From Pelagibius marinus (GTDB lineage Bacteria > Pseudomonadota > Alphaproteobacteria > Kiloniellales > Kiloniellaceae): a DNA stretch of 64,000 nucleotides. The stretch is from positions 1-64,000 of the forward strand of contig NZ_JACSDK010000005.1 of assembly GCF_014925385.1 (NCBI RefSeq), given 5' to 3'. The position numbers and the translations under genes were made by a program. The notes beneath the pieces are model-generated. The model ran no database searches, was not told the DNA's origin, and saw only the letters and a list, made by a program, of their open reading frames with translations. This document shows positions 16,887 to 20,140 of this stretch, one piece after another; position 1 is the stretch's first letter; each line of letters begins with the position of its first letter.

Positions 16887-17902
16887 AGCGTAAAGCCCGC
16901 CAGCAGAGACCCGGTCAGGGCCACTGCCAGATACCAGAAGAACACCGACCGGCGCACCAGCGCATGGACGGCCATGGCCGCCGGCAGGCTGGTGACGCCG
17001 CCGGCGATGAGGAAGGCCAGGGCGGCGCCCGGGGCCATGCCGAGGTCCATCAGCTCGCCGACCAGCGGAATGGCGGCGAAGCCGTTCAGGTAGGCCGGCA
17101 CGCCGACGGCGACGGCCAGGGGGATCGCCTGCCAGGACTCGCCGCCCAGCGCGCCGGCGACGACTTCGGCGGGCAGCCAAGCCGACATGAGGCTCTCGAT
17201 GGCGAAGGCGAGCAGCAGCCACTTGGAGAGGAAGAAGGCCGTCGAACGGGCTTCGCCGGCGAAAGCCTGGCGCCGCTCCGCCTCATGCCAAAAGGCCCAG
17301 CGCAGGGGCACGGCCTCGACCTTGGGGCGGCAGCCGCCGCAGCCGCCGACGCCGGCGCGCAGCGGCTGGCCGAACCAGCCGGCGCGCTGCAGGGCCAGGG
17401 TCGCCCCGCCGGCCAGCAGGCCGAGGCCGATCGCCGCCAGGGTCTTGGCGAGGGTGAAGGGCAGCCCCAGGGTCGCGGCCATGAGCACGAACTGCTCCGG
17501 GTCCATCAGCGGCGAGGCGACGCAGAAGGCCAGCACCGGCGCCAGCGGCACCCCGGCCGCCAGCAGGGCGGCCATGAGCGGCACCACGCCGCAGGAGCAG
17601 AAGGGCGAGAGCGCGCCGGCCGCCGCGGCGATCACCAGCGCCGACAGCGGCGCCCGGTCGACCATCCCGGCCACCAGGCTGTCCGCCCCGGCCGCCTTCA
17701 GCCAGGCCGCCAGGATCACCGACAGCGCCAGGAAGGGCAGCAGCCGCAGGAAGGCGTCGAGGGTGAAGACCAGGCTGTCGCCCGCCTGGGCGGGCACCGC
17801 GAGGGCGAGCCCGGCGAACAGCAGGCCGAGGGTCAGCCAGACGCGATCGACGGATCGCAGGAAACTTCCGGCGGAGGTCGCGGCAGTCGTCAGAACGGTC
17901 AT
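16859..17902 (-). CDS. ArsP/SO_0444-type metal efflux permease
   Basis: A 347-aa polytopic inner-membrane permease of the DUF318/ArsP superfamily, closest to the SO_0444 Cu/Zn efflux group. About eight membrane segments are visible in two repeats. The first repeat has [11 protein letters not shown], a conserved Cys motif of the family, and the second has [11 protein letters not shown] cytoplasmic loop carries GGCGGCRP, a likely metal-binding site. The ArsR-type repressor gene lies 66 bp upstream on the same strand, and each gene has its own copy of one promoter/operator. Efflux of arsenical or soft/transition metal is the likely role. The exact ion is uncertain. Confidence 0.85.
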
Positions 17903-19104: not shown

Positions 19105-19148
19105 GGTTGGACTTGTAGCAGAGCTCTACCCCCGCCACAGCCACCGTT

Positions 19149-19180
19149 GTCGTCCCGGGACTTGATCCCGGGACCCATTG
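19149..19180. repeat. REP-like palindromic repeat, copy 1
   Basis: A 32-bp repeat containing a perfect 9-bp hairpin: GTCCCGGGA, loop CTTGA, TCCCGGGAC (19152-19174). It is 29/32 identical, in inverted orientation, to the copy at 19487-19518. Two bases separate it from the stop codon of the GIY-YIG gene. Similar CCCGGG palindromes are scattered between genes in many alphaproteobacteria (general knowledge); no third copy was noticed in this window. Confidence 0.85.
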
Positions 19181-19182
19181 AC

Positions 19183-19470
19183 CTAGCCGTTCAAACGGTC
19201 GTAGAGGTCTTCCCACTCCGGATTGTCGCGCTTGATCAATTGGATCTTCCAGGCCCGTTGCCACTCTTTCAGGGTCTTCTCGCGCTGGATTGCCTGCTCG
19301 ATCTCCTCGTGAGCCTCGACAAATACCAGATGTGTGACACGGTATCTCTGAACAAACTTCGAACCGCGCCCCTGCCGATGCTCCCAGACCCGGCGGACAA
19401 CGTCGTTGGTGACGCCGATGTACAGTGTTCCGTGCTTACGGCTGGCAAGGATATAAACGTAGTAGGCCAT
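19183..19470 (-). CDS. Small GIY-YIG nuclease family protein
   Basis: A 95-aa single-domain GIY-YIG protein (YhbQ/UPF0213-like). YYVYILASRKHGTLYIGVTND gives the paired YVY and YIG strands, Arg in DVVRRVWEH and the catalytic Glu in IQREKTLKEW follow in order. The ATG at 19470 is chosen because it opens the domain directly; an upstream in-frame ATG at 19557 would translate through the repeat. The gene is bracketed by two inverted 32-bp palindromes, 2 bp beyond its stop and 16 bp before its start. The family would nick or cut DNA; no natural substrate is established. Confidence 0.92.
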   Translation of the reverse strand: MAYYVYILASRKHGTLYIGVTNDVVRRVWEHRQGRGSKFVQRYRVTHLVFVEAHEEIEQAIQREKTLKEWQRAWKIQLIKRDNPEWEDLYDRLNG

Positions 19471-19486
19471 TGCCTCACGCCAACGC

Positions 19487-19518
19487 CATTGGGTCCCGGG
19501 GTCAAGCCCCGGGACGAC
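19487..19518. repeat. REP-like palindromic repeat, copy 2 (inverted)
   Basis: The second 32-bp copy carries GTCCCGGGG, loop TCAAG, CCCCGGGAC (19493-19515). Relative to copy 1, the ninth base pair of the stem has changed from A-T to G-C on both sides, a compensatory change that keeps the hairpin. With copy 1 it forms a 370-bp unit around the GIY-YIG gene. Confidence 0.85.
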
Positions 19519-19564
19519 AGTGGAGTACTTATTGAGCCACTGAAAAGCCGACCACACCGACCTT

Positions 19565-20140
19565 CTAGCAGGCAGACAGGAGCAATTTGCCCAACTTCTT
19601 TGAAATCTCCTCTCTGCCCTTCTTCTTCAGAAAGTGGCTGGGAATGTGGAGGAGAAAAGCCTTCCATTTGCCGTCGCGCTGTCGGGTTTCCGAGCGCACA
19701 TAGTCCAGCAGCACCGTCGCCGACTCCCGGTCAAAGGCCCACAGCACCTTGCCCTTGTAGTCGATCTGAAAGTAGGCCTCGTCTGGCCACTTGAGGGTGT
19801 GCATCCTGCGACAGCCGCAGGCGTGACACGTCACAGATCCGGCGCTGAGCCCATGGCTGTGGTGCCAATCTTCCGCCCGGCATCCTTCGGGCAGATCGCT
19901 GACCTCGCCCAAGGTAATCCCGCCGAGGCCGTGATAGAACACGGCGCCATGCCAACGACTGCCACTGCTGTCTTCAAAGAGGTGGTATTCGAAGGAGCCG
20001 CTTTTCTGGAAATATTCTATGTCCGCTTTCCGCTTAATCCTGGCGACCGCAGCGAACTCGTACTCGGCCGGCGAGCCGCAATTGGGACACCGGATGCTGA
20101 CCCGATGAGGCATGCGATACCAATCGTAAGCTTCGGTCAT
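19565..20140 (-). CDS. Hypothetical protein with CPNCG and CHACGC zinc-ribbon pairs
   Basis: A 191-aa soluble protein of unknown function. RCPNCGSPAEYEF at about 17-29 and VTCHACGCRRMHTLKWP at about 103-119 supply two CxxC pairs that probably bind one zinc. Between them lies a segment rich in Trp, His and Gly. The C-terminal part is basic (FLKKKGREEISKKLGK). Composition is a little lower in GC and richer in Lys and Phe than the neighbours, and it sits next to the repeat-bracketed nuclease gene, so recent acquisition is possible but unproven. Confidence 0.75.
   Translation of the reverse strand: MTEAYDWYRMPHRVSIRCPNCGSPAEYEFAAVARIKRKADIEYFQKSGSFEYHLFEDSSGSRWHGAVFYHGLGGITLGEVSDLPEGCRAEDWHHSHGLSAGSVTCHACGCRRMHTLKWPDEAYFQIDYKGKVLWAFDRESATVLLDYVRSETRQRDGKWKAFLLHIPSHFLKKKGREEISKKLGKLLLSAC

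Follow-up and report, generated by a model that had tools for sequence, protein, structure and literature searches.

CGTC REPs are a superfamily of palindromic repeats found in species of all alphaproteobacterial orders; neisserial and rickettsial repeats have been placed in it as well (Di Nocera et al. 2013, PMC3733652). As the cited part of this survey describes them, CGTC REPs have an unpaired terminal CGTC or TGTC tag, a stem of 8–9 bp with complementary A-T, almost invariably, at its first and second positions, a loop of 4–5 nt and a CCA tail; they are present in many copies, mostly as head-to-head dimers and frequently as heterodimers. In the same part of the 2013 survey no dedicated transposase was apparent, no associated transposase gene had been found, heterodimers were left without obvious explanation, and a broad spectrum of transposases was suggested as mobilising the repeats.

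The protein encoded at the locus described here is closest, by sequence and by fold, to the small GIY-YIG proteins of UPF0213 (1zg2, 1ywl), and we know of no link of these two proteins to repeats. Its PF01541 catalytic domain is shared with free-standing GIY-YIG homing endonucleases, in which this domain is found in a selfish context. IS-derived MITEs are known as full units accompanied by internal-deletion derivatives with the same ends, an arrangement that we also see for CGTC REP units. RAYT/TnpA-REP systems with GTAG REPs and REPINs (REPtrons), covered partly by PMC3733652, likewise have short hairpin repeats that form inverted pairs and are dispersed over intergenic DNA; their small nuclease gene has copies of its own repeat on both sides, and where one genome holds separate repeat families, each has a gene to itself. 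CGTC REPs, small GIY-YIG proteins and RAYT systems were all known before, and the link of the first two appears to be new; among the open PMC literature (preprints and most closed journals being outside this scope) we found no paper linking GIY-YIG genes to CGTC REPs.

The GIY-YIG locus and the REP families of its genome

The window, i.e. the whole analysed stretch of 64,000 nt from Pelagibius marinus, contains a small nuclease gene bracketed by two palindromes; the palindrome coordinates given here take in the tag base.

19148..19177, + strand: CGTC-type REP palindrome on the 3′ side of the gene; tag TGTC, stem GTCCCGGGA/TCCCGGGAC, loop CTTGA, tail CCA, head outward
19178..19200, − strand: 3′ end of the gene and its stop, beside the REP; several short family-A dimers have at their inner end a motif like this one (which reads CCTATCCGTT in the C11 copy)
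19183..19470, − strand: 95-aa single-domain GIY-YIG nuclease gene (P0001); PF01541, E 1.5e-16
19471..19489, − strand: leader from the REP to the start codon; the part nearest the REP is similar to sequence at the inner end of a number of short dimers of family A
19490..19519, − strand: CGTC-type REP palindrome on the 5′ side of the gene; tag TGTC, stem GTCCCGGGG/CCCCGGGAC, loop CTTGA, tail CCA, head outward

The earlier note had described two inverted 32-bp copies, 29/32 identical. Both a reading of the sequence and an independent inverted-repeat search recovered them at 19149–19180 and 19487–19518, with mismatches at 3 of 32 positions. Folding agreed with its claim that each copy is a 9-bp hairpin, the loop being of 5 nt (DNA energies −11.0 and −11.9 kcal/mol, z −3.57 and −3.16), and the compensatory stem change from A-T to G-C that it had noted is real, since two of the three differences are the two halves of one stem pair. 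The spacing, with the stop codon 2 bp from one repeat and the ATG 16 bp from the other, was also as described. Of the proposed 370-bp unit, the bracketed layout stands; as a whole mobile unit it is probably too small, because DNA conserved between copies, or absent at empty sites, reaches past the palindromes.

No head-out REP pair appeared in 200 shuffles of the window made in two-base blocks, which gave 17 REP-like matches in total; together with a shifted-window control (4/2142) this rules out a chance inverted repeat. One more strict-finder match in the window, at 17323–17351, was taken for chance. An ORF of 191 aa (19565–20140) that adjoins the GIY-YIG unit has no Pfam match; about 650 bp including this ORF are missing at the orthologous place in the related genome G022, and in another relative, G018, they are missing together with the unit. 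An anti-phage system was ruled out, there being no PADLOC match.

Judged by the TGTC tag, the 9-bp stem, the 5-nt CTTGA loop and the CCA tail of both copies, the window repeat is a member of the CGTC REP superfamily, the first stem pair being the exception. Stems of the family to which it belongs (family A, below) start with G-C followed by T-A and so depart from the A-T rule; as the cited part of PMC3733652 words this rule 'almost invariably', we treat the family A stem as a variant rather than as an exclusion. For the other matches of the strict finder the CGTC/TGTC tag is present by construction, because the finder requires it. What sets this case apart is that a GIY-YIG gene is the partner of the repeats, whereas no transposase partner was known to the cited part of PMC3733652.

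A scan of the window's own genome with the REP pattern (at most one mismatch) yielded 42 forward and 44 reverse matches, as against 1 and 2 for the reversed control. From these matches we compiled by hand a list of 34 head-out pairs, leaving out chance matches, partnerless REPs and pairs with the second REP outside the pattern (C3, C15, C18). The list comprises 13 pairs of family A (CCCGGG stems), the window palindromes being one of the 34 pairs, and 21 pairs of family B (CTCGGG stems). As is usual for CGTC REPs, there are many copies and they are mostly head-to-head dimers. All 34 listed pairs are heterodimers, a call that uses three A subtypes (GGCA, GGGA, GGGG), and none mixes A with B. We also examined a wider set of pairs, from the own genome, 1.6 Mb of G022 and genus loci, in which orthologous copies are kept. 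Here, too, no A-B pair occurred, and 41 of 41 B-B pairs consisted of B1 and B2; 13 A pairs, classified by two end types, were hetero and five were homotypic (L028 and L029 of the own genome among them), and one G022 pair joined a B1 REP to a different stem. The A pairs are therefore not all heterodimers, and the five homotypic pairs, like the last one, count against reading the gene as the mobiliser. In 14 more pairs of the wider set one or both REPs were untyped, some of these being chance matches of the loose finder.

Two more units were detected in the own genome with the 370-bp window query: a full one at C11:78500-78869 (78%) and, at C21, one that has diverged. Genes with PF01541 number four in this genome: those of C5 (the window), C11 and C21, and one in a 726-aa uvrC-sized frame. 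The three small genes all lie between head-out REPs; at the uvrC-sized gene no such repeat was found. The C5 and C11 units carry A ends and the C21 unit carries B ends; in either REP family, a head-out pair encloses a GIY-YIG gene particular to that family. The C21 gene (G000:C21:11299-11810) is bracketed twice, by two REPs and again by two more farther out. Some short A dimers have inner ends that resemble the ends of gene-bearing units, the best cases among eight tested dimers being 13/16 (p 0.0002) and 12/16 (p 0.0007); single-end p-values ranged from 0.0002 to 0.23, and the other cases were not significant. The motif of the gene 3′ end in these dimers may be read as a remnant of deleted gene copies.

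RAYT was rejected as a mobiliser in the own genome: the only Y1 transposase (RAYT-like) gene found there (L338:1456-2364, C18) has no CGTC REP in its 3.3-kb locus. A hairpin with a 14-bp stem lies upstream of this gene (L338, G000:C18).

The likeness to REPtrons is one of arrangement, a gene flanked by cognate repeats, and not of membership. RAYTs are HUH tyrosine transposases and their REPs have a GTAG tag; the window protein, in contrast, has a GIY-YIG domain in place of HUH and a catalytic tyrosine, and the tag of the repeats is TGTC/CGTC. Cleavage is reported for the E. coli RAYT in the cited part of PMC3733652; for the window protein it is a proposal.

In 40 aligned members of the nuclease family the residues Y6, Y17, G19, R27, H31, E64 and N83 are invariant; we take their roles to be catalytic, by I-TevI and UvrC. 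Five homologues with internal stops (L060, L061, L087, L112, L125) were kept out of the protein alignments. The dN/dS ratio of the window gene versus its G022 orthologue, about 0.08, indicates purifying selection. An AlphaFold2 model of the window protein had a mean pLDDT of 93, and a structure search with it returned UPF0213 proteins as the closest folds, only the first at an E-value below 0.001, followed by Slx1 and then I-TevI with weak E-values (0.05 and above for Slx1). By sequence, the closest solved relatives are the UPF0213 proteins 1zg2 (E 1.8e-8) and 1ywl (E 1.3e-5). Where seen, annotations of family members mostly read 'GIY-YIG nuclease family protein'.

Association of the gene with REPs across genomes

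A scan of genome contigs provided 79 named-record loci, by titles mainly of Alpha- and Betaproteobacteria; two had too short flanks, which left 77. An inverted repeat running from flank to flank reached the threshold in 52 of these 77 loci versus 4 of 2142 shifted windows. The two 150-bp flanks of the named loci held 95 strict REPs (4.11 per kb) versus 76 elsewhere (0.097 per kb). At least one strict REP was present in 45/77 loci, with REPs on both sides in 27 and a head-out bracket in 17. The strict finder saw no REP near the gene in 32 of the 77, of which 17 are from Bradyrhizobium, a genus that carries a longer repeat missed by this finder; 24 of the 32 still reach the flank-to-flank threshold. 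Missed in the same way were the inverted palindromes that visibly flank the gene in the sequence of Novosphingobium aromaticivorans. In a Sinorhizobium meliloti record the gene is situated between gltA and lpxB, with CCTCGGG-type REPs. In the betaproteobacterial loci L078, L104 and L106 the gene lies between two dimers and not inside one, which counts against reading the gene as the mobiliser of the repeats.

That REPs are merely common in intergenic DNA was ruled out, since a strict REP was present in 71 of 137 intergenic regions beside homologues and in 13 of 327 other regions of the same loci (p 7e-32). Nor are REPs found beside GIY-YIG genes of every kind. Strict REPs were present at 0/9 loci of small GIY-YIG genes that match the subfamily weakly or not at all (six of these control genes are from REP-rich genomes and one, G385, weakly matches the subfamily), and at uvrC-sized GIY-YIG genes a REP was found at 0/20 loci. 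Among the small GIY-YIG genes tested, REP flanking sets the window subfamily apart, a point of difference from the UPF0213 proteins.

The earlier note had asked whether homologues of the gene are always flanked by the repeat. Mostly they are: a REP lies at most 200 bp from the gene in 26 of the 30 best-scoring loci drawn across the class (23/27 without the window and two repeated named loci), and four of the 30 have no strict REP near the gene. Within the genus of the window, REPs accompanied 10/10 tested loci; the genus matches outside the own genome number 16, and the six left out, all in G018, are mostly fragments, and L053 and L056 are among the six.

Several records from this survey carry doubtful labels. 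A region of CP090106.1 (1680000-1729999; L297), labelled as plasmid pSymB of Sinorhizobium meliloti, contains rpsB, gltA, bamA and lpx genes; by this content it looks like chromosome, and the pSymB label may be wrong. Close relatives of the gene in MAGs labelled Parcubacteria, Flavobacteriales, Vogelbacteria and Vicingus (L066, L069, L125, L133) are likely contamination.

The nuclease family gave a strong match in 143 of 389 genomes of the class, with at most 13 candidates scored per genome; nine genomes in which the best match was weak (about 1e-15 to 4e-13) were counted as gene-less. Counting as REP-bearing those genomes with at least four REPs by two REP patterns, we observed 80 genomes with both gene and REPs, 63 with the gene only, 27 with REPs only and 219 with neither (odds ratio 10.3, p 3e-21). 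When the data were permuted within families, 0 of 20000 permutations reached the observed co-occurrence; permutation within genera was not significant (2899/20000). The 63 of 143 gene-bearing genomes with fewer than four matches should be seen in the light of the two patterns not covering all stems. The 27 of 246 gene-less genomes that still hold at least four REPs are the main result against the mobiliser reading. Eighteen of them were re-searched with PF01541, and 11 of the 18 have only uvrC-sized GIY-YIG genes, so that REPs either outlast the gene or have another mobiliser or route. On the earlier note's question of whether the repeats are spread without relation to the nuclease, the outcome is mixed, with co-occurrence overall but these 11 genomes against it.

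Stem and loop architecture of the REPs (an 8-bp stem with a 4-nt loop, or a 9-bp stem with a mostly 5-nt loop) changed 11 times on a tree of 81 nuclease proteins versus 26.2 times when shuffled, none of 500 shuffles being as low; few columns underlie the tree, and part of this fit may come from descent of the hosts.

Deletion derivatives and site polymorphism

In G018, two full units (L037, L044) coexist with two internal-deletion derivatives (L053, L056), and both ends are common to all four, as in MITEs. Unlike IS-derived MITEs, the units contain no DDE or HUH transposase, and no target-site duplication was seen. Likeness among the four copies reaches about 50 bp past the REPs, as far as a terminal inverted repeat that is imperfect (about CTACnGnATTCACACATC); the element may in fact end outside its REPs. 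One full-length copy, L037 (G018:C155), is changed at Y17 and H31, positions that are invariant in the alignment, and is perhaps inactive for this reason.

We queried 34 sites of the own genome against 2.4 Mb of G022 and found both flanks to be collinear at 19. The REP pair is present in both genomes at nine of these sites and absent from G022 at ten; the empty sites that the earlier note had proposed to search for do exist. One of the ten holds a single REP of the other family, and in four no more than 27 bp separate the flanks. The DNA missing at pair-less sites stretches some bases past the REPs. Neither a target-site duplication nor an exact boundary was seen at these sites, the flanks of which have diverged. 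Two further sources of empty sites were rejected: G018 for the window unit, since the intergenic region is too diverged for a boundary to be read, and the Bradyrhizobium loci, where flanks are collinear in about ten genomes.

G022 has the window unit at the corresponding place, and the C21 unit occupies one and the same position in the own genome, G022 and G017. At a dS of about 1.8 the window and C11 gene copies are, by this divergence, old paralogues. This dS and the same-place units in related species count against the mobiliser reading, in that for no gene-bearing unit was a recent move seen. Those examined look mostly kept vertically at fixed sites, while pairs turn over. RAYT genes, too, are mostly kept vertically at fixed sites.

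Two other repeats were met in these comparisons. A hairpin-like insertion of about 100 bp at L196:477-574 (G000:C1:111476-111573), GAGCAACCCGCGTCC...GGACGCGGACAAGTTGCTC, is missing at the same G022 site and represents a different small mobile-looking repeat. In Bradyrhizobium, a palindromic MITE-like stretch of about 100 bp starting TCTAGAGCTTCGGTTCTGATT (L082, and L115) occurs in one of the aligned genomes and is missing from others; it is unrelated to CGTC REPs.

Explanations of the association

The reading that we favour, and think probable on the sequence comparisons above, is that the GIY-YIG gene encodes a dedicated mobiliser of CGTC REPs and that the scattered pairs are its non-autonomous derivatives, a way of life like that of RAYTs and REPINs on an unrelated nuclease. 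The unit made of a REP, the GIY-YIG gene and an inverted REP would be the autonomous or helper copy; the scattered pairs, with REPs roughly 20–100 bp apart inside, would be internal-deletion copies spread in trans, each REP family by its own nuclease. The REPs may extrude as hairpins or as a cruciform in single-stranded or supercoiled DNA, the GIY-YIG domain, which in the related Slx1 works on branched DNA, would cut near the CGTC foot of each hairpin, and the freed or copied unit would enter a new intergenic site via host repair, a strand-transfer route that we propose together with the cleavage. The two slightly different REPs of a pair would be the left and right ends of the element; this view of heterodimers follows from a helper unit and non-autonomous pairs having the same two ends. 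The mini-element and RAYT analogy proposed in the earlier note is strengthened considerably by flanking, cognate families, deletion derivatives, presence and absence at sites and co-occurrence; the REP-rich genomes with only uvrC-sized genes and the loci with no strict REP near the gene make the outcome a mixed one. A wider claim, that a lone protein of about 95 residues is the sole element-encoded enzyme and the transposase of CGTC REPs in Alpha- and Betaproteobacteria, possibly also of neisserial and rickettsial repeats, that heterodimeric hairpins form the left end and the right end, and that this is a new class of bacterial transposable element, is more tentative; we would give it somewhat less than an even chance.

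An alternative is that CGTC REPs are moved by another enzyme, a RAYT or other transposase, or by replication slippage, and that the gene was caught between two REPs in an ancestor. REP-rich genomes lacking the gene exist, and a broad spectrum of mobilising transposases had been suggested by Di Nocera 2013 (in the cited part of PMC3733652), both of which would fit such a passenger. Still, the association is repeated across many different stem sequences and, in one genome, across two REP families, it is confined to this subfamily among the small GIY-YIG genes tested (others 0/9), the single Y1 transposase gene of the own genome has no CGTC REP in its locus, and alphaproteobacteria have none or only few tnpAY1 homologues, as far as the cited part of PMC6006769 goes; we consider this explanation unlikely. 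The nuclease could also act on REPs to a different end, cutting their cruciforms or hairpins so as to limit or remove them, or processing REP hairpins of mRNA, with proximity reflecting regulation rather than mobility. Such a role would agree with purifying selection, with related species having kept the gene at the same place, and with the weak match to the fold of Slx1, a nuclease acting on branched DNA; hairpins near the stop codon could stabilise or end the transcript. Yet a nuclease of this kind should not be carried between the two ends that the repeats also have, alongside internally deleted forms of the gene-bearing unit in one genome, and the repeats are more frequent, not less, in gene-bearing genomes, which makes this role quite improbable.

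GIY-YIG is a classical homing nuclease domain, and the window protein has a weak PHROG homing-endonuclease match (E 9e-4). A homing-type element, the nuclease of which cuts REP-bearing or empty sites so that the unit is copied in by gene conversion, would find in REPs its repeated targets, and its spread would need pre-existing REPs. However, at nine collinear pair-less G022 sites the strict finder sees no REP, and insertion thus seems not to need a resident one, unless a degenerate REP, which this finder can miss, was overlooked. No intron or intein is involved, and homing endonucleases have one conserved target, whereas here three gene-bearing units with hairpin ends occupy different, unrelated intergenic places and pairs occupy many others; a homing-type element seems very improbable to us.

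If the nuclease is indeed the mobiliser, a concrete small enzyme family could be named for CGTC REPs, which the cited part of PMC3733652 left without a spreader, and their heterodimers would be explained as the two ends of an element. It would also suggest a second origin of the RAYT/REPIN way of life, this time with an unrelated nuclease, and would assign a function to a family that has strong matches in more than a third of the genomes of the class (143/389).
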